From a virus, in IMG/VR virus record IMGVR_UViG_3300025896_000161, positions 1-26,962 of that record: a DNA stretch of 26,962 nucleotides; one strand, given 5' to 3'. Each line of letters begins with the position of its first letter. Positions within the stretch are counted from its first letter, which is position 1. Positions 1 to 12,268 of this stretch are shown in pieces. The notes below the pieces were generated by a model. That model saw nothing but the letters and a program-made list of their open reading frames with translations. It was not told the DNA's origin and did no database searches. The position numbers and the translations under genes are program-made.

Positions 1-806
1 TCCATCTGCTTGGCCAGCGCCAAGTTGAACGCTTCGCGGCGCTTGGCGCGCAATGATCCACCACCGGCCATCGGCACGTTCTCTGCCGTCTCACCGATGA
101 TCTTCATGAACTTGTTGTCGCTCAACTGGTGAAAGTTGATCGGCACTCCGGCGTCGGTGGCCTTGCCGACCAGTTCCATGGAGCGCTGGCTCAGCCGCGG
201 CGTCGCAGCCTCCACGGCGGCATCACCCGCCGCACGTGCAACGTCACGACCGGCGCGCACCGCAGTGCCCACCGCGCGCTCGGGCATCGGGTTCACCAGC
301 GTGCCGCGCGGGCCGGTGCCGACGGCCGGCAGCGCTTGCAGCACCGTGTCGGCGCCTTCGGTGATCTGGCGGCCGAACTGCGTCTCCGGCTCGCCGCCGG
401 AGGTCAGCCGCGTCTGCCGGTAGATGTCGCGCACGACGCCGACGCCGCGCTGCGCGCCCGCCTCCATGTTCTTCTCGGCGCTGCCGCCCGTGACCGGCGT
501 GGCCAGCAGCCCGACCATGCCGCCGGCGCCTCCGCCCACGAGCTTGGCAACGATGTCGAGCGCACCCTCGACGGCGCCGACCACCTTGTCGCGGATCGGG
601 TTGCGCGCCGCGGCTTCCTGCCGCTGCCGGTCGGCCACTTGCTCCGGCGCGCGGCCGGCGGCCCACTCGGGGTCGACGCCTGGCACCGCCGCAGCGCCCA
701 GCTTCCCGAGCGGCACGGCCGGTGCGGGCGGGGGCGCGGGCGGCGCGTCCGGAACGAACCGGCGGCGCGGCGCGGCGGCTTCGGTGGAGTCAGGCACGAA
801 CGGCAT
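1..806 (-). CDS. Large internal virion / DNA-ejection protein, N-terminal part (runs off left edge)
   Basis: Seen: an open frame of 268 codons from ATG at 806 with no stop before the window edge, so only the N-terminus is present. The start shares one base with the TAA of the upstream gene (TAATG), which supports this start. The N-terminus is Pro/Ala/Arg rich and low in complexity. A Gly-rich hydrophobic stretch follows (KLVGGGAGGMVGLLATPV), which could touch membrane. Near the edge, VGKATDAGVPINFHQLS, then NVPMAGGGSLRAKRREAF and FNLALAKQM, resemble the segment with an 'A..AGV.L...QL.......LP..G' pattern seen in large phage ejection proteins. Inferred role: a protein stored in the capsid or neck and injected with the DNA. 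It is last in the visible late operon, the usual place for the largest ejection protein. No catalytic motif is visible in this part. Confidence 0.6.
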   Translation of the reverse strand, partial: MPFVPDSTEAAAPRRRFVPDAPPAPPPAPAVPLGKLGAAAVPGVDPEWAAGRAPEQVADRQRQEAAARNPIRDKVVGAVEGALDIVAKLVGGGAGGMVGLLATPVTGGSAEKNMEAGAQRGVGVVRDIYRQTRLTSGGEPETQFGRQITEGADTVLQALPAVGTGPRGTLVNPMPERAVGTAVRAGRDVARAAGDAAVEAATPRLSQRSMELVGKATDAGVPINFHQLSDNKFMKIIGETAENVPMAGGGSLRAKRREAFNLALAKQM

Positions 807-2734
807 TACTGCCAAGTCCCCGTTTGACCGTTGATCGTGATGCGGTCGCCCGGCTTGAGCTTGCCGGCCTTGGCCGCGGCTTCCGCTTCGGCTTCCGAGG
901 CGAACGTCGGCGTCTTGGCGCCTTGCCCTCGCTCGCGGATGCGCGCCGAGCCTTCGTTGAACTGACGGCGCAGCTGGTCGCGCACCGCGCTCGGTGCCTT
1001 CTCGGCGGCCTTCATCTCGGCCTTCAACTGGTTCATGATCGCAACGAGTGCCGTGTGCCCGTCCGCCCGTGACAGCATGGCGCGGGCGTGATCCTTGTCG
1101 CTGACTGTCGGTGTGCCCACCGGGCTGACCGCGCGGGCATAGGCGTTGATAAACGAGTTGAGTGCAGCGCCGAAAGCTCGGGTCTCCGGATCGCCGGTTT
1201 GATCGTTGTAGGCAATGATGGCCTTGTTGACCGGCATGAAGCTTGTGCGCGAAACCACGGCCGACGTGTTGACGACCAAATCCGCCATCTCCAGCGCTTC
1301 CTTCTCGGCCAAGCCAAAGTTAGCCGTGCGCGTGCCTAGCGTGCGCTGCGCGGCCTTTTGCCCTTGAAACTCTGCTTTGGCCAGCACCTGTTCGGGAACC
1401 GTGATCCCCAACTCATCACCGAGTTCGGTTATGCGATTGCGCAAAGCAACCACGTTTGCTGCGCCTTGCGCGCCGCGGCCTAGGTTGGTGAAAACGGAAT
1501 CGTCACCGTCGAGCGCTTGCATCGCCATCTTGGTAAGTGCTCGATCACTCAGCGTCGGTTCCACTGCAGGTTTGCTGCCGCCGGCGCCGCCAGCGCCGCC
1601 AGCGCCGCGCGGCGCCAAAATGCGCGGCGGCGCGCCGTAAGGAATGTCTTCTTGACTGATCGGCTTGCCAGTCTCGTCGCGCGTGATGAGCCGCACACGG
1701 TCTTTTAAATCAATCTTTTCAACCGTGGTGTTCTTCTTGGTCGGCCGGCTACGCGCGGTCAGATCGTCAAGATACTTCCGTGCCTCCGGACCGCCTTCTT
1801 TCTCGCCTTCAGCCAAACGCTTGGCAATCGCCGGGTTGCGCAGCGCCTCGGCTAGCGTACCGACATTCCCCATGTAGTCAAACCCCCGCTTCAGATCAAT
1901 CGGAACGATTTGATCCTTTTCGTCGGTCGTACCGTCGCGCGTCATTGCTGCGTCGTAGTACAGCGGTTGTCCGTCTGGCCCGATTATGTCGGTGTAAACG
2001 CGCAAGATCGGGTACACCTTGTCGGGGTAGCTGACACCGTTGGCGTCTTGTGCGGGAACAAGCCGCACGACTTCCTTCTTGGTGATCGTGCCGCCGTAAG
2101 GGCTGGGCTCGCCGATGCCGCGTTTCAGATACGTCGGCCCGAGCAACCCGTTGATGCCCTTGATCTGCATGTCGACGTTGCCATACTTCAGCCCGTCAGT
2201 GATGTCGCTGACGTGCTGCGGCATCTGTGCAAGGTCTTGCAGCGTCATGCCCATTGAGCGGACAAGATGCAAGACCAGGTCTTTCGGAGGCACATCATCT
2301 AGGCTTTGTCGGCCCGCCTGCACTCGGGTTAAAAAGTTGATGGACTCTTGGCGAGCGGCGCGCAGTTGAGCCTTAAGCTCACCGTATCGCTTTGCATCTT
2401 CGGGATCCACCGGCATGTTCTGCAACTGCCGGGCCTTGGTGGTGGTTTCAATATCGCCAATGCTTTTCTCAAGCGCGCCAATCGCTTCAGCCGCGCGTTG
2501 GCGACGTTCGTTCTCATCCAACCGTTGCTGCTGACGCTGCTCGGTGGAGCGCATGAGTTCCAAGCGCTCGTTCTCGCGCTTGGCAGCTTGGTCTGCGCGT
2601 TCGTCGGCACGCGCCTTGTAGACATCCTCAACGGCTTGCCGCTTCTGAGTCTGCTCGTCTTGGTAGGCGTCGCGCGCCATTCCATACCCGGTGTTCAAAC
2701 CGGCGGCGAGCCTTGCTGCGAGACCTCGTGCCAT
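806..2734 (-). CDS. Internal virion-like protein, 642 aa
   Basis: Seen: 642 residues from ATG 2734 to TAA 806. The N-terminus (MARGLAARLAAGLNTGYGMA) resembles that of other small and large phage internal virion proteins. It is followed by about 100 residues very rich in Glu, Gln, Arg and Lys, likely a coiled coil (roughly residues 25-130). A globular middle part precedes a Gly/Ala linker (GAGGAGGAGG, about residue 375). A helical C-terminal region ends in PGDRITINGQTGTWQ, a tail common in phage internal proteins. There is no signal peptide or transmembrane segment. The position between a Gly-zipper protein and a large ejection protein suggests a structural or ejection role; this is inference from context and composition. 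Bases of roughly 1150-2650 look less GC-rich than the neighbours and carry more A/T-ending codons, which may mark a different mosaic origin. Confidence 0.65.
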   Translation of the reverse strand: MARGLAARLAAGLNTGYGMARDAYQDEQTQKRQAVEDVYKARADERADQAAKRENERLELMRSTEQRQQQRLDENERRQRAAEAIGALEKSIGDIETTTKARQLQNMPVDPEDAKRYGELKAQLRAARQESINFLTRVQAGRQSLDDVPPKDLVLHLVRSMGMTLQDLAQMPQHVSDITDGLKYGNVDMQIKGINGLLGPTYLKRGIGEPSPYGGTITKKEVVRLVPAQDANGVSYPDKVYPILRVYTDIIGPDGQPLYYDAAMTRDGTTDEKDQIVPIDLKRGFDYMGNVGTLAEALRNPAIAKRLAEGEKEGGPEARKYLDDLTARSRPTKKNTTVEKIDLKDRVRLITRDETGKPISQEDIPYGAPPRILAPRGAGGAGGAGGSKPAVEPTLSDRALTKMAMQALDGDDSVFTNLGRGAQGAANVVALRNRITELGDELGITVPEQVLAKAEFQGQKAAQRTLGTRTANFGLAEKEALEMADLVVNTSAVVSRTSFMPVNKAIIAYNDQTGDPETRAFGAALNSFINAYARAVSPVGTPTVSDKDHARAMLSRADGHTALVAIMNQLKAEMKAAEKAPSAVRDQLRRQFNEGSARIRERGQGAKTPTFASEAEAEAAAKAGKLKPGDRITINGQTGTWQ

Positions 2735-5653: not shown

Positions 5654-5751
5654 GCGACGCGCTCCCAGCCGCTACCGTTCCACTGCCACGTGCGGCCGTT
5701 GAACGTGTAGCTTTCCCCGGTGGCCGGCGAGCTCGGAAAGTCGATCGTCAT
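5650..5751 (-). CDS. 33-aa W-rich mini-protein
   Basis: Seen: ATG 5751 to TGA 5650, 33 residues: MTIDFPSSPATGESYTFNGR followed by TWQWNGSGWERVA. It overlaps the previous stop and the next start as ATGA on both sides, exactly as its neighbours do, and it is a clear paralogue of the following 66-residue protein. That conservation at the protein level makes a real gene likely despite its size. The fold is probably a small three-stranded sheet with conserved Trp and Gly. The C-terminal 40 residues of the preceding fibre protein (APSSPSDGDEWFDPDTG...) follow a similar plan. A structural role is inferred. Confidence 0.6.
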   Translation of the reverse strand: MTIDFPSSPATGESYTFNGRTWQWNGSGWERVA

Positions 5752-6956
5752 AGCTCGACCCACTGCGACGAGGTGCCGTCGTTCACGTAGCGGTACAGGA
5801 TGCCGGTGTCAGGATCGAACCACTCGTCACCGTCGGACGGGGAGCTTGGTGCGCTACTGCTGTTCGTCCACGAAGGCCCTCCACCTCCGCCGGTGGCCGA
5901 GATCACCAGCGCGCCGGCACTGTTCGGCGAGATCGAGACGTTGGTGCCCGCCACCAGTGAAACCGCCAGCAACGCGAGCACAGTCTCCACGAAATCGGCG
6001 ATGTCCGCCGACTCGATGTTGAGCATCGACTTCACCTGCGCGGCCGTCAACGCTTGCGGCGCGGCCGGGCCGCTCAGGTTCGCGTTGCCGATGATCGTCT
6101 CGGCGGGCAGATCCGCCATCTTGGCCAGCGTGACCTGGCCGTTCTTGATCGTCCAGACCGTGCCGGCGAAGGTGACCTCGACATCGACATAGTCACCATC
6201 GTTGACGTAGCCGCCCCCACCTCCGCCGCCCCCACCGCTGGCAAGCGTGATCAGCTGCCCATCGACCAAGTAGACGTAGCCGTCCCCGGAAGCGAGCAGC
6301 TGCGTCAGTGGCAACAGCGCCTGCGCGAGCAGCTTGTAGGTCACCGGCATGTGCTGCTCGGCGTCGTTATAGACCCCGAGGTACTGCAAGGCCGGAAAGC
6401 CCGGCTTGACCCACAGCGTGGTGGTCGACAACGCGATGCCGATCGGCACCGACACGTTGGTGTACTCCGGCCACTGGGTTAGCCCCTCGATGCCGAGGAA
6501 CACCGGTTCGAAAGCGGTGAACGCCGCTCCCGAGATCGTGCACAGACCCTCGCGTTGCACCAGCACCGACGAGCCCGAGCTCGCTGCGGCACGCGCCACG
6601 CCGAGGATGTTGTAGATCGTCGTGGGGTCGTTCGGGTTCGCTTCGGCGCAGGTGCCGTCGCCGCTGCCGTACACCGGGTAGCTCTGGCGCACCGCCGACG
6701 ACGCCCGCAGCGTCTGCGTCTGCGACGCGGTTGAGCCGGCGCTGCTCAGCGAGTTCACCACTTGCTGAAGCTGCGAGACCTGAATCTTGAGGGTCTGGAT
6801 GTCTGCGGCCGACGTCGGCCCCGGCGCGGTGTTCTGCAATAGCGTGACGAGCCGCTCCAGCGCCTCGATGCGTTGCCGGATAGCCGCAACCAGACCGTTG
6901 ACCTCGCGCGGGTCAACGGTGCGCGCGTTGCCGATGCCTGGGCTGCCGAGCGCCAT
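5748..6956 (-). CDS. Tail-fibre-like protein with coiled coil and poly-Gly hinges (402 aa)
   Basis: Seen: 402 residues from ATG 6956, sharing a base with the upstream stop (TGATG). The N-terminus carries a heptad-like helix (VNGLVAAIRQRIEALERLV, continuing LKIQVSQLQQVVNSL), a likely trimeric coiled coil. A beta-rich middle domain follows (about residues 95-240), then a nine-Gly run and a segment (VEVTFAGTVWTIKNGQVTLA, LPAETIIGNANLSGPAAPQA) common in phage fibres. A second Gly run precedes a C-terminal WTNSSSAPSSPSDGDEWFDP module. These features indicate an elongated trimeric fibre; glycan or surface binding is inferred. The position after the stabilisation protein suits a receptor-facing tail fibre. 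No depolymerase motif was recognised. Confidence 0.65.
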   Translation of the reverse strand: MALGSPGIGNARTVDPREVNGLVAAIRQRIEALERLVTLLQNTAPGPTSAADIQTLKIQVSQLQQVVNSLSSAGSTASQTQTLRASSAVRQSYPVYGSGDGTCAEANPNDPTTIYNILGVARAAASSGSSVLVQREGLCTISGAAFTAFEPVFLGIEGLTQWPEYTNVSVPIGIALSTTTLWVKPGFPALQYLGVYNDAEQHMPVTYKLLAQALLPLTQLLASGDGYVYLVDGQLITLASGGGGGGGGGYVNDGDYVDVEVTFAGTVWTIKNGQVTLAKMADLPAETIIGNANLSGPAAPQALTAAQVKSMLNIESADIADFVETVLALLAVSLVAGTNVSISPNSAGALVISATGGGGGPSWTNSSSAPSSPSDGDEWFDPDTGILYRYVNDGTSSQWVEL

Positions 6957-8845
6957 CAGGTCAACTCCGTCACGTCCTCTGCGATCTGGATCTCTCGGAT
7001 GGTCGACGTGCCCAGCACTTCGATCTCGACCTTGGAGTAGACATCGACCGCGGGCAGCGTGAACTCTTCCTCGCTAGTGACTGCAACTTCATCCACCTGC
7101 ACACCGTCGCCGTACACGCGCATGAGGATGTTGCTGTAGTCCTCGGCCTTGACTTGGGCGATCAGCATGGTCGCCGGATAGGGCAACAGCCACAGCTTGC
7201 CCTTCCAGCGATAGGTCATCAGTTGAGTGTCATCGCCTTCGAACTGCGAGATCACATTGCCGTCGGCGATCCCCGCCGGCGTGGTCGGTGCGACCGGCAA
7301 CGAGGGGTCATCCGGCTCGTCGATGTTGTCGACCACCGTGTAGAGCGTGTCCGTGATCGGATCGACGTGCGCTGCGGAAGCATGGAAAGGCATCTCGACG
7401 ACACCGAAACCGTTGGCCTTCATGTCGAGCGCATATGCCTTGTAGGTCTGCCCCGGCGTGCCACTGCCGCCCTGCTCCGGCGGCCGCGCGAAGAGCCAGT
7501 AGATGTCGTTGTGCTGCACCGCGCGGATCGTGGTCGGGTCCAGGGCCTTCCACTGACGCAGCGTGAACACGCCGTCCGTGAGGTTGCGCACCTGGCCCAC
7601 ACCTTGCACTGCCATCAAGCCGTCAGTGCCCGGGAACACCACACCGATGCCCGTGAGGTAGGCGAAGCCCTGCTTGCTAACCGCGGCGTAGGGCACTTCG
7701 AACTTGCTCATGCTGTACGTCGCCGGGTCGTTGCCGATCGCGACGTAGACGAAACTCTGCGTGCCGATCACCACCGTGTTGTCGACGTTGGCGATGCCGA
7801 CGATGTCGGTGTCCGTGTTGAGCCGGTACAGCGGCGGCCAGGCGTGCGGCCGGTTCTGCGCAGAGAAGCACAGCTGGTTGCGGCGGAAGCCCACCATGAT
7901 GCCGTTCGGCAGGGCCAGGATGCCCTCCAGGTCATCGGGCGGCAGATCCCAGCCGGTGCTCTCCAGCACCTCACCGAGTTGGGCGTCGGTCAGCACGTCG
8001 TCGTAGGTGGCCGTCGCCAACGGGATCTCCGCGACGAACAGGAACTGCGTGCCGGTGTTGCCGGTCGCGGCGCGGTAGATGCGCTTGGTCGTGATGGCGT
8101 AGGCCGCGTCGATCCCCGACGGCACCGCCACCGGCGTGGACACCGTGACGGTCAGGCCGTCCGGTCGGAGGATGGTGGCGCTGGCCGGCGACGGCGCACT
8201 CTCTTCGCCGATGTCGTTGACGAAGGTGTAGACGTAGCTGGTTGCGAGGTTCGCCGGCGTGTAGCCGGTGCTGCCGCTGGCCTGCACCTGCACCTGACGG
8301 ATGTAGGCGTAGGAGGTGCCCCCGAGTTGATCGAACGTGCTGTAGGCCCCGCAGTAGTCCCCGATCGTGGTGCTGACCGTGGTCTCGTAGCTGCCGATGT
8401 CCACATCACCGAGCGTGCGCACGGTGGCGGTGATCTTCAAGCTGCCGTCCGAGTTCGGGACGACCTTGATGCGCATCTTGTAGTAGGTGTCGGCGTCGAG
8501 CGCGAGGCCGGTGGTGTACCCATTGATGCTGCCGTACTGAGCCCACGAGCCCGCAATACCGGCGCCCAAGCGCCACGTCGAGCCGCTGACGCGCTCGATG
8601 ATGATCGCCGTGCCCACCCCGGCGCCGTCGCGCATCACGCCGAAGCCGAGCCGCGAGCGGCCCGCCACGTTGTTGCACGCCCATTCGTAGGTGGCTTCGA
8701 CCACCGACGCCGTGGCCACACCGAAGTTGCGCGAGAGGAACGTCGGGATCTGGCCGCCATTCGTGTCGCGCCACTTCAGCTGGTACACCGTGCCCGAGCC
8801 GCCGAGCGGATCGGAGACCTGGCTGACTTCACTTTCGAAGGCCAT
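6956..8845 (-). CDS. Stabilisation / tail-tube-B-like beta-propeller protein, C-terminal ORF with lectin-like domain (629 aa)
   Basis: Seen: 629 residues from ATG 8845. The first ~190 residues look like a concanavalin-type jelly roll (YEWACNNVAGRSRLGFGVM, DADTYYKMRIKVVPNSDGSL). The rest matches the conserved plan of phage stabilisation / tail tubular B-like proteins: SYVYTFVNDIGEESAPSPAS, KRIYRAATGNTGTQFLFVAE, GILALPNGIMVGFRRNQLCF, NRPHAWPPLYRLNTDTDI and GIGVVFPGTDGLMAVQGVGQ. These repeats form a beta-propeller that joins neck and tail. The ORF is in the same frame as the upstream 168-codon ORF, separated only by TGA and GCC. The two halves are usually one polypeptide in this family, so this ORF may be expressed by restart, by readthrough, or as a broken half. 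Confidence 0.7.
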   Translation of the reverse strand: MAFESEVSQVSDPLGGSGTVYQLKWRDTNGGQIPTFLSRNFGVATASVVEATYEWACNNVAGRSRLGFGVMRDGAGVGTAIIIERVSGSTWRLGAGIAGSWAQYGSINGYTTGLALDADTYYKMRIKVVPNSDGSLKITATVRTLGDVDIGSYETTVSTTIGDYCGAYSTFDQLGGTSYAYIRQVQVQASGSTGYTPANLATSYVYTFVNDIGEESAPSPASATILRPDGLTVTVSTPVAVPSGIDAAYAITTKRIYRAATGNTGTQFLFVAEIPLATATYDDVLTDAQLGEVLESTGWDLPPDDLEGILALPNGIMVGFRRNQLCFSAQNRPHAWPPLYRLNTDTDIVGIANVDNTVVIGTQSFVYVAIGNDPATYSMSKFEVPYAAVSKQGFAYLTGIGVVFPGTDGLMAVQGVGQVRNLTDGVFTLRQWKALDPTTIRAVQHNDIYWLFARPPEQGGSGTPGQTYKAYALDMKANGFGVVEMPFHASAAHVDPITDTLYTVVDNIDEPDDPSLPVAPTTPAGIADGNVISQFEGDDTQLMTYRWKGKLWLLPYPATMLIAQVKAEDYSNILMRVYGDGVQVDEVAVTSEEEFTLPAVDVYSKVEIEVLGTSTIREIQIAEDVTELT

Positions 8846-8848
8846 GGC

Positions 8849-9355
8849 TCAGTCCGTGAAGGGCACGACCGGGGAGATCGTCCACGAGTCATTCAACTGG
8901 TCACCGTTGTCGGTGATGTCCACCGAGAACGTCGTCGCCGTCGTGTCGACGCCCACGCTCAGCGTCGGCGGGCTGTCGGGGTTGGGCACGCCCAGTGGCC
9001 GCGTGGTGACCGGGTAGGGTTCGCTGCCCGTCGTGGCCAGCGCGTAGTTCGTCCACCGCGGCTGCGCATACAGCGCTGGCGCAGTGAGGTAGGTACGGTA
9101 GGTGTCGTCGCCGGGGATGATGCCGCGCGCAACATCCACGTCCACGCCCCACGACAACCACTTGTCATCGAGCAGGTAGATAGTACGCACCGGCACGGGC
9201 GTGGCCAGTGTCTTGGTGATCGAGAACTGCTTCCAGGCCGTGAGGTCGCCCGTCAGCAGCCGAGTGCCGACCGCGGCCTGCGCGGCATTCTCGGGCAAGA
9301 GATGCGGTTCGACGCGCGGGACTTCACCTCGCGGGTTGATGAGGGCGATCTTCAC
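8849..9355 (-). CDS. Stabilisation protein N-terminal ORF (168 aa), ends at an in-frame TGA
   Basis: Seen: 168 residues from GTG 9355 to TGA 8851-8849. The sequence carries the N-terminal signature of the phage stabilisation / tail-tube-B family: INPRGEVPRVEPHLLPENAA, then DDKWLSWGVDVDVARGIIPG, DDTYRTYLTAPALYAQPRW and the 'LGVPNPDSPP' linker. In that family this region normally continues into the propeller, which here is the next ORF in the same frame. The last residues (GDQLNDSWTISPVVPFTD) look like the first strand of the lectin-like domain that continues after the stop. The TGA is therefore either read through, compensated by restart at the ATG six bases on, or a nonsense mutation. Confidence 0.65.
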   Translation of the reverse strand: MKIALINPRGEVPRVEPHLLPENAAQAAVGTRLLTGDLTAWKQFSITKTLATPVPVRTIYLLDDKWLSWGVDVDVARGIIPGDDTYRTYLTAPALYAQPRWTNYALATTGSEPYPVTTRPLGVPNPDSPPTLSVGVDTTATTFSVDITDNGDQLNDSWTISPVVPFTD

Positions 9356-9368
9356 TCGACACGCCCTT

Positions 9369-10010
9369 CTACGCCAGCTTGGTGATCACCACGGACAGGG
9401 TGGCGGTGACCGACTGCTCGGTGTTGTTGAGCTCCAGCACGAAGTTGCGCACCAGATCCCCGCCGCTCATGCTCAGCAAGAAGCTGTCCGTGAAGTCGTA
9501 CTGCTCCTGATCGCCGGCCACGTTGTGCCGGCTGCCCGTGGTCATCTGGTCTGGTCCCGTACCGGAACCGCTGTGCAGCGTGGCGTAGGTCGCCACGTTG
9601 CCGATGTTCAGCGTCAGCCGGGACGCAACGCGCACCTCGTAGACGCCCGCATCGGCGAAAGTGATCTCGTCGGAGGTGTCGTTGAAGCTGCCGACTGAAG
9701 CATCGGCGACGAGCGAGGTGTACGTCCACGATGAAACACCGCTGCCCGAGCCGCTACCGGCGAGGGTGAAGGCCATCACCGGGGTCGACCCCGCCGCCGG
9801 CGTGGACGGGTTGCTGGCGCTCGTCACCGTCACCACGTTGGCGTTTTCGCCTGCGCCGCGCGTGGCCACCAGCGGGTAGACGAAGTCCACCGTGTCGACA
9901 TCGGGCAGGCCCAGATCGACGCCGTCCGCCTGGAACTGGATGTAGTTGGGGAATCCCTCCGGGGCCTGCGAGGGGAAGCCGTTACCAGCGGGGTTGAAGC
10001 CGAAGCTCAT
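9369..10010 (-). CDS. Structural protein with C1q-like C-terminal domain (213 aa)
   Basis: Seen: 213 residues from ATG 10010. The N-terminus is Gly/Phe/Pro rich (MSFGFNPAGNGFPSQAPEGF). Residues after ~90 form a beta-rich domain: GSFNDTSDEITFADAGVYEV, RVASRLTLNIGNVATYATLH and LVRNFVLELNNTEQSVTATL. This strand order, with 'F...G.Y.V......' followed by a hydrophobic C-terminal strand, resembles C1q/TNF-like jelly rolls used as trimeric caps in phage fibres and decorations. The homology is suggested by pattern only. It sits between the adaptor genes and the stabilisation protein, so a neck or tail decoration is inferred. No signal or membrane segment is present. Confidence 0.55.
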   Translation of the reverse strand: MSFGFNPAGNGFPSQAPEGFPNYIQFQADGVDLGLPDVDTVDFVYPLVATRGAGENANVVTVTSASNPSTPAAGSTPVMAFTLAGSGSGSGVSSWTYTSLVADASVGSFNDTSDEITFADAGVYEVRVASRLTLNIGNVATYATLHSGSGTGPDQMTTGSRHNVAGDQEQYDFTDSFLLSMSGGDLVRNFVLELNNTEQSVTATLSVVITKLA

Positions 10011-11331: not shown

Positions 11332-11718
11332 TCACGCGAGGTTGCCCGCCTCGGCCGCCAGGCGGCGCAACTCGGCGCGCAGCTTGTTGTGGTGCAGGGT
11401 CGGGTCCAGCGTGACGCCGTACTCCGACGCGGCGAAGCCGACCATCTCTTCGACGCTGGCCTTACCAATGTCGAATACCGGGGCGTCGGCCAGCGATAGC
11501 GGATCGCCGCCGTTCATGCTGCGCAGCCACGCTTTGCGCTCGTCCGGGCCCGCCTTCGGCGAACCGGTGAATACGCGGTACTTCGGGTGCTTGCGCAAGG
11601 CGGGCACGTTCGGCATGAGCCGACCGTCCTCGACGTGGATGAGGAACGGGAACTTTTTGTCCTGGGAGATGCGGGCGCGGCGCGCGGCCAGCGCGGCTTC
11701 TTGGGCTTCGGTGATCAT
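11332..11718 (-). CDS. Hypothetical protein with SAP/HeH-like C-terminus (128 aa)
   Basis: Seen: 128 residues from ATG 11718, overlapping the stop of the HNH gene as ATGA. The N-terminal half includes PFLIHVEDGRLMPNVPALRK and RVFTGSPKAGPDERKAWLRS. The C-terminal half (SVEEMVGFAASEYGVTLDP, then HHNKLRAELRRLAAEAG) has the helix-extended-helix rhythm of SAP/HeH/LEM-like motifs, with the 'A...YGV.LD......KLRAEL' core seen in several phage virion proteins next to capsid genes. Possible role: minor head protein or adaptor. Function is unknown; the motif call is by eye. Confidence 0.55.
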   Translation of the reverse strand: MITEAQEAALAARRARISQDKKFPFLIHVEDGRLMPNVPALRKHPKYRVFTGSPKAGPDERKAWLRSMNGGDPLSLADAPVFDIGKASVEEMVGFAASEYGVTLDPTLHHNKLRAELRRLAAEAGNLA

Positions 11719-12227
11719 CGGGTAGCTCCGGGGTGATCGTTGAAATGAACCGGCGAATGCGTGAACAGCACGCGCTCGGCAGTGATACGGGCGGCTACGG
11801 CGTCAACGACCGTGTCATGCAACCCCAAGTGCTTCCGCCGCCGATTCATGGCAATGCGGGCGAGCCACTTGTTCTTTGCCGGCAGATACGTGACGCCCCG
11901 GAAGCCGGAAGTCGCATCACTGCGCAGCCCTTGGTTTTGCCTCTGCTCTCCGGCCGTAGCCTCGCGCAGATTGGCCCACCGATTATCGGTGCGATTCCGG
12001 TTCTTGTGGTCGACTTCCTGTACCGGCCACCGGCCAGTCATGTAGAGCCACGCCAGTCGGTGCGCCCGGTAATCGACGCCGTCGATCATAATCCGCCAGT
12101 AGCCTTTGCCGTCAAGACTTCCGGCACGGGCATATGCCACTTTCTTACGGCCGCCGATGTTCCAAGTGAACTCGCCCGTTTCCGGGTCGTAGTGCACTTG
12201 GAGCATGAGCGTCTGCTGATCGAGCAT
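11715..12227 (-). CDS. HNH endonuclease with AP2 DNA-binding domain (170 aa)
   Basis: Seen: from ATG 12227. The frame is open to a GTG at 12257, but that codon lies in the loop of a GC-rich hairpin terminator, so the ATG is preferred; MLQVHYDP at ATG 12206 is an alternative. The N-terminal part (VHYDPETGEFTW...YRAHRLAWLYMTGRWP) leads into the HNH core EVDHKNRNRTDNRWANLREA (about residues 71-90). An AP2-type domain follows: TSGFRGVTYLPAKNKWLARI, then KHLGLHDTVVDAVAA. HNH-AP2 proteins are free-standing phage homing endonucleases that cut DNA and spread their own gene. Its place between the capsid unit and a structural gene, with its stop fused to the next start by ATGA, suggests an insertion that kept the operon intact. 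Confidence 0.85.
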   Translation of the reverse strand: MLDQQTLMLQVHYDPETGEFTWNIGGRKKVAYARAGSLDGKGYWRIMIDGVDYRAHRLAWLYMTGRWPVQEVDHKNRNRTDNRWANLREATAGEQRQNQGLRSDATSGFRGVTYLPAKNKWLARIAMNRRRKHLGLHDTVVDAVAARITAERVLFTHSPVHFNDHPGATR

Positions 12228-12247
12228 GGCGGGCGTCAATGTAGAAA

Positions 12248-12268
12248 CCGGCGCCACAAGGGCGCCGG
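12248..12268 (-). terminator. Probable intrinsic terminator after the capsid unit
   Basis: Seen: a perfect 8-bp inverted repeat, CCGGCGCC / GGCGCCGG, with a 5-base loop. It starts 20 bases after the stop of the 66-residue gene. On the minus strand it is followed by a short, interrupted T tract (TTTCTACATT). The stem is very stable; the U tract is imperfect, so termination may be partial and let some transcription reach the HNH and adaptor genes. Confidence 0.55.

Follow-up and report, generated by a model that had tools for sequence, protein, structure and literature searches.

A conserved in-frame stop codon divides a predicted podophage nozzle gene within its lectin-like insert

The nozzle (tail hub) proteins of the podophages P22 (gp10), Sf6, SU10 (gp17) and T7 (gp12) are single polypeptides, and a continuous chain is to be expected here because the nozzle must contain pressurised DNA and open on cue. 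The nozzles of SU10 and T7 are described as consisting of a platform, a seven-bladed propeller and further domains (PMC9509320, PMC6702177), with the N- and C-terminal parts of the SU10 protein coming together both in the platform and at blade 1, in its velcro closure (PMC9509320). The nozzle of phage GP4 (8jov_A, named in the fold search as the portal-tail complex of this phage) is also one chain, of 577 residues, which has its N part at residues 5-113 and its hub from about residue 117-124 and carries no lectin insert. Two-chain legume lectins, such as pea lectin, are cases of a ConA-type jelly roll made from two chains. In lectins of the pea type the break is made post-translationally by a protease, while in the nozzle described here it is made by a stop codon. 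This nozzle differs from those of P22, Sf6, SU10 and T7 in being encoded by two ORFs, and it lies in the window, that is, the whole stretch of viral DNA that was analysed (26,962 bases).

The nozzle gene pair and its products

The two ORFs (Table 1; hereafter N chain and C chain) share one frame in the open-reading-frame list of the virus record. The N-chain ORF ends with GTG CCC TTC ACG GAC TGA, followed by GCC and then by the ATG at 8845, which confirms on the minus strand the arrangement of same-frame ORFs parted by TGA, GCC and ATG that had been read from the sequence beforehand. The pair sits in a tailed-phage structural operon with terminase, portal and head genes. From the head protein onward, the intergenic gaps of the ORF list are 294, -4, 11, -4, 3, 13, 3 and -1 bases, the second of the 3-base gaps being the junction in question, and with such gaps around it the N/C junction resembles the ordinary junctions next to it.

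A number of other features were recorded in the window. An HNH endonuclease gene (phrog_99, E-value 3e-61; 11715-12257, minus strand) lies among the structural genes, and a 642-aa ORF (806-2734, minus strand) has no PHROG match at E 0.001. The 402-aa protein encoded downstream of the C chain shows a weak match to a tail-fibre family at its C-terminal end. An antisense open frame of 743 codons (7154-9385, plus strand) covers nearly the whole nozzle gene pair and is probably a shadow of GC-rich codon use.

Table 1. Coordinates of the nozzle gene pair and of neighbouring structural genes in the window
Feature	Position	Strand	Remarks
Terminase large subunit	21624-19870	-	Operon neighbour, upstream of the nozzle genes
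Portal/connector	19831-17525	-	Upstream of the nozzle genes
Major head protein	13481-12552	-	Upstream of the nozzle genes
Structural proteins	11320-10014	-	Upstream of the nozzle genes
N-chain ORF, 168 aa, GTG start	8849..9355	-	N-terminal part of the predicted nozzle and first ~27 residues of the predicted lectin fold
N-chain tail, residues 142-168	8852..8932	-	Lectin fold in the model; legume-lectin alignments, secondary structure
GGA, putative minimal Shine-Dalgarno	8853..8855	-	7 nt before the ATG; weak, an inference
TGA stop of the N chain	8849..8851	-	Same-site stop in relatives
ATG start of the C chain	8843..8845	-	3 nt past the stop
C-chain ORF, 629 aa	6956..8845	-	Remainder of the predicted lectin-like domain and larger portion of the nozzle hub
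Lectin-like ConA-type jelly roll, C residues 1-192	8270..8845	-	Predicted models and fold search
Nozzle hub, C residues 201-629	6959..8245	-	phrog_511, 8jov_A, fold search
402-aa protein	5748-6956	-	Downstream; Phage_cement_2 at 21.6 bits, below the cut-off of 24

Both chains match the same families by sequence. The N chain corresponds to positions 320-455 of the phrog_511 profile (E-value 7e-21) and the C chain, from its residue 202, to positions 464-858 (E-value 2.8e-98), while against 8jov_A the N chain matches residues 5-113 (E-value 1.3e-15) and the C chain residues 124-418 (E-value 2.2e-47). A model of the read-through protein, built with the TGA as tryptophan, reached a pLDDT of 88.9 and a pTM of 0.68 and has the same fold as the GP4 nozzle (Z 36.3 over 456 residues, rmsd 2.6). 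The fold is common to the P22, Sf6 and SU10 chains (Z 20-22, or 20-24 with Pa223 included); T7 gp12 is absent among the matches listed. In view of these phrog_511, 8jov_A and fold matches, the N and C chains together are predicted to be a podophage nozzle (tail hub) protein. Fold and profile thus agree with the P22 gp10-type nozzle that the sequence-only reading had proposed.

The model also contains the jelly roll that had been anticipated from the sequence, as lectin-like chains align to its residues 142 to 362, approximately (Z 16.9-17.8; 179-195 residues). By fold, the inserted domain is predicted to be a legume-lectin-like (ConA) jelly roll; a shared fold shows no function. The lectin part gave no match to Pfam up to E 1, nor, taken alone, to the phage collection at E 0.01. 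For most of the lectin structures the alignment begins at model residue 142 and the stop falls at residue 169, which would leave about 27 residues of the lectin fold on the N chain. Residue 169 is within a coil (165-173), after the short first strands and ahead of the first long one (174-181). The earlier placing of the stop inside the jelly roll therefore stands, at about 27 residues into the predicted fold, with the qualification that in the model the legume-lectin-like domain is broken in a loop rather than in a strand.

The two chains could also be used apart, the N chain serving as an adaptor-like piece on its own and the C chain as the nozzle. The ORFs are indeed separate and the lectin part is predicted confidently without the N chain. 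However, when the C chain was modelled alone (mean pLDDT 72.8, pTM 0.37) much of the hub was predicted poorly, a loss of confidence which supports but does not prove assembly of the two chains, as it is confounded by the unequal alignment depths of the two models (49 and 29 rows). In GP4, moreover, this N part is contained in the nozzle chain, and separate use of the chains is regarded as quite improbable.

Conservation of the break

The TGA is found at the same place in the contigs of L001 (N chain 89% and C chain 95% identical to those of the window) and L002/L143 (84 and 87%, respectively). Between the window and L001 and L143, synonymous differences amount to 0.30-0.57 per site in two segments of the N-chain tail (codons 135-168). 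The corresponding pN/pS values are 0.04-0.31, with the last of these segments reaching 0.50 on ten changes between L001 and L143, and pN/pS is 0.12-0.22 over codons 1-14 of the C chain. These segments are short and hold few changes, and both sides of the stop look to be under purifying selection.

That the stop is a sequencing error, or a nonsense mutation newly arisen in a gene under decay, would suit the fact that most homologues have no stop at this point. However, the same stop is kept in both of these other contigs in spite of the synonymous differences and with low pN/pS on either side, and a stop occurs at the equivalent place in L205, which belongs to a genome record of Piscinibacter sakaiensis 201-F6. 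With a stop that is heritable and pN/pS that is low, error and decay were rejected and are considered scarcely plausible.

In all, stops at the equivalent point were identified in three distant relatives. The junctions read PFSD TGA GCGAGCACC ATG in L159 (identical to L205 and 48% identical to the window), PYSD TGA ACC ATG in L242 and PFSD TAA CCG ATG in L207. The stop codon is thus TGA at five of the six lectin-site loci and TAA at one, and the base 3' of the stop (G, G, T, G, C and A) passes through all four letters. The gap between stop and ATG is 3 nt in the window, L001, L143, L207 and L242 and 9 nt in L159, and the residues of the spacer are unconserved (A, A, S, AST, P and T). What is kept at all six are the chain ends, P[FY]xD at the close of the N chain and MA[FY] at the beginning of the C chain, together with a reading frame that continues in phase. 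Taken together, the lectin-site break looks to be a heritable gene boundary, and neither an error nor a read-through signal.

Opal recoding or selenocysteine insertion at the TGA would be in keeping with the use of this codon at five of the six loci, but it does not explain the TAA of L207 and the C-chain ORF itself terminates at TGA. Furthermore, the window holds no tRNA gene, a search for RNA families at the site gave only one weak unrelated match, and no consistent hairpin was found downstream of the stop. Both mechanisms were rejected on the TAA and the lack of an RNA signal at the site, and their probability is considered negligible. Because the stop codon and the base after it vary, codon-specific readthrough is disfavoured as well.

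The sequence-only reading had preferred readthrough or error to two natural proteins, a preference that is not supported, as there are homologues with two ORFs split at the same point. Its further suggestions fared differently: one homologue with TAA and another with a 9-nt gap speak against a readthrough specific to TGA, opal recoding and nonsense mutation do not fit a conserved break with a TAA variant, and the stop-restart coupling of two subunits, which it had listed among its options, is now the best reading. Alignment of homologues gave a divided answer, as most relatives are unbroken while others keep the lectin-site stop.

Unbroken counterparts are the fused lectin-bearing nozzles of IMG/VR, for example L144, L145, L146, the contigs of L003-L005. 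They have the same N part, insert site and hub in one open frame, and their C part is 56-58% identical to that of the window. At the linker, the 50 fused rows have 13-20 codons, compared with 20-26 in five broken rows with the stop counted, a comparison made without L242, which did not pass the filter. With regard to further searches, a genome scan with the three close sequences as query found nothing, and one with alignment A2 as query found three loci. A scan of viral contigs with a short DNA pattern returned at least 119 stretches, and among the matches listed the only tblastn relatives were L029 (contig of L002) and L052 (contig of L006). The A3 scan kept 80 of 90 relatives.

Breaks across the nozzle family

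Profile scans identified 139 loci with both parts of the nozzle, amounting to 85 distinct hubs; these were told apart by an 80-aa anchor, under which L001 and the window fall together. A single ORF encodes 73 of these hubs, in agreement with the earlier statement that one polypeptide is usual in the family, and several ORFs encode the other 12. An ORF was counted only where it carried a profile match, and since many contigs are fragmentary and some end within the gene, the number of breaks is a lower bound; L227 and L238, which are close to the broken L225, both run out at profile position 488, where their DNA ends or nearly so, and were counted as single. Lectin-site breaks account for five of the 12 (six with L001), among 77 with a lectin-type segment.

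The remaining seven breaks lie elsewhere, namely near hub profile position 440 (L016, L191, L220 and L264), near position 490-504 (L198 and L225) and in the N part near position 70 (L199). All seven have 142-364 aa outside profile coverage at the break. Counted from the first base of the stop, the restart is at -1 in L016 (as in L178, on the same contig), L264, L198 and L225, at +3 in L199, at +4 in L191 and at +7 in L220. Six of the seven are out of frame, so readthrough would be unable to join their ORFs. Similar insert sites are filled inside one ORF in L181, L185, L217, L221, L226, L211, L176, L192 and L193, among others.

Some of these loci have arrangements of their own. L198 carries a tandem pair of ORFs, both of which encode a LamG domain (PF13385) followed by a C-terminal hub part, and these chains are perhaps alternatives. 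In L225 (8445-9398; also L228) a 212-aa ORF without a Pfam match interrupts the nozzle hub, and the end of the hub follows on an ORF of 103 aa. In L016, L178 and L209 (for example L178, 5437-5913) a 159-aa domain forms its own ORF within the hub gene, and this ORF overlaps its neighbours through ATGA before and TGATG after it, as read by eye.

The history of the lectin-site break was followed in trees of the whole protein and of its parts. The whole-protein tree held 63 of 75 unique loci, those dropped being loci without the lectin or with low coverage and nine divergent names on a hand-written list; the trees of the parts were also made without L012, L182, L188, L189 and L276, leaving 58 rows. 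The six broken rows cluster together when the lectin part is used; their group has an SH-aLRT of 96 in the quick tree and a UFBoot of 87 and SH-aLRT of 88 in the careful tree, where one change suffices in 88% of 200 bootstrap trees. In the hub tree, by contrast, the broken rows are scattered; four changes are needed, of which at least three are forced, and constraining the broken rows to one clade is rejected (p-AU 5.5e-119, quick tree). The whole-protein tree needs two changes, and the N-core tree, with four changes and one forced, is not decisive. As the lectin tree groups the broken rows and the hub tree does not, movement of the cassette between backbones is probable, and the break probably arose once in the lectin cassette and spread to several nozzle backbones by recombination. 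The lectin clade is moderately supported, however, so the break may also have arisen a second time or been reverted.

Translation across the junction and its meaning

The most probable reading, held with good confidence, is that termination-reinitiation yields two chains which assemble into one nozzle subunit, and that the break spread with the lectin cassette. The ribosome would terminate the N chain at the TGA, remain on the mRNA and restart 3 nt later at the ATG. The C chain would then supply the remainder of the lectin-like domain and the hub, and the two chains would co-fold as one nozzle subunit, with a contact of N- and C-terminal parts like that of SU10 keeping the separate N chain in place. 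The repeated breaks at inserted domains suggest that assembly of the hub tolerates an interrupted chain at such sites, and the lectin-site break may be tolerated because breaks of this kind leave hub assembly intact.

A study with experiments in E. coli and Haloferax reports that reinitiation depends strongly on distance, treats distances between -8 and +10 nt as a predictor of termination-reinitiation and gives overlaps of -4 and -1 nt as by far the commonest; in E. coli, it finds a 4.5-fold enrichment of gene pairs within the predictive range for subunits of complexes (PMC10666635). The gaps of +3 and +9 nt at the lectin site both fall inside this range, the 9 nt of L159 being near its limit. 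In this respect the nozzle pair is like the bacterial pairs described there, which likewise start within -8 to +10 nt and whose products are likely to be parts of one complex (PMC10666635). Unlike these pairs, the two subunits encoded in the window correspond to a single protein in most relatives, and their boundary falls inside a domain.

No strong Shine-Dalgarno sequence was found before the C chain, where the duplex energy of -3.2 kcal/mol is about that of the random median (-3.1), and several other starts in the window are equally weak. All five loci with a 3-nt gap retain a GGA located 7 nt ahead of the ATG, and CGGAC precedes the stop at all six lectin-site breaks. However, G is the last base of 36-45% of the Ser, Thr and Ala codons of these genes, which makes the CGGAC merely suggestive. 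The GGA is put forward as a possible minimal Shine-Dalgarno element.

Programmed or leaky readthrough would instead yield the short N chain together with a small share of full-length nozzle chain, so that hexamers would be mixed. It would account for a C chain without a strong Shine-Dalgarno sequence and for a frame that is open on both sides and in phase at all six lectin-site breaks, although common descent explains the latter too, since the six may share one origin and so count as a single event. The TAA of L207, the variation of the next base and the unconserved spacer all speak against it, as does the RNA from the stop onward, which folds no better than shuffled sequence (z -1.19 to +0.52), and six of the seven breaks at other sites are out of frame. 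Readthrough is considered unlikely, though a low level of it is conceivable because all six lectin-site breaks stay in frame, and it is not strictly exclusive of the two-chain reading, with which it is partly compatible. With respect to the literature, in a narrow open-access search on phage readthrough, none of the matches listed contained the phrase 'stop codon readthrough'. A narrow word search of the same kind found neither split phage tail genes nor domain insertion in a nozzle, which is a weak sign of novelty for a split nozzle and does not imply absence from print.

If two chains made by termination and reinitiation do form the nozzle subunit, the naturally split lectin may, tentatively, be viewed as an exchangeable fastener, through which a cassette moves among backbones and a nozzle is built non-covalently from separate modules. 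The order of such a cassette would be lectin strand 1, stop, restart and remaining lectin.

The finding also carries a warning for annotation, in that an internal stop of a conserved phage gene can mark a heritable boundary rather than an error or readthrough. Recurrent breakage at inserted domains points to a hub that can assemble from pieces. If so, domain swapping would be easy, as a match at both ends would not be required of a cassette that brings its own start. The nozzle family offers a natural set of points at which nozzles and lectins can be divided into two chains.
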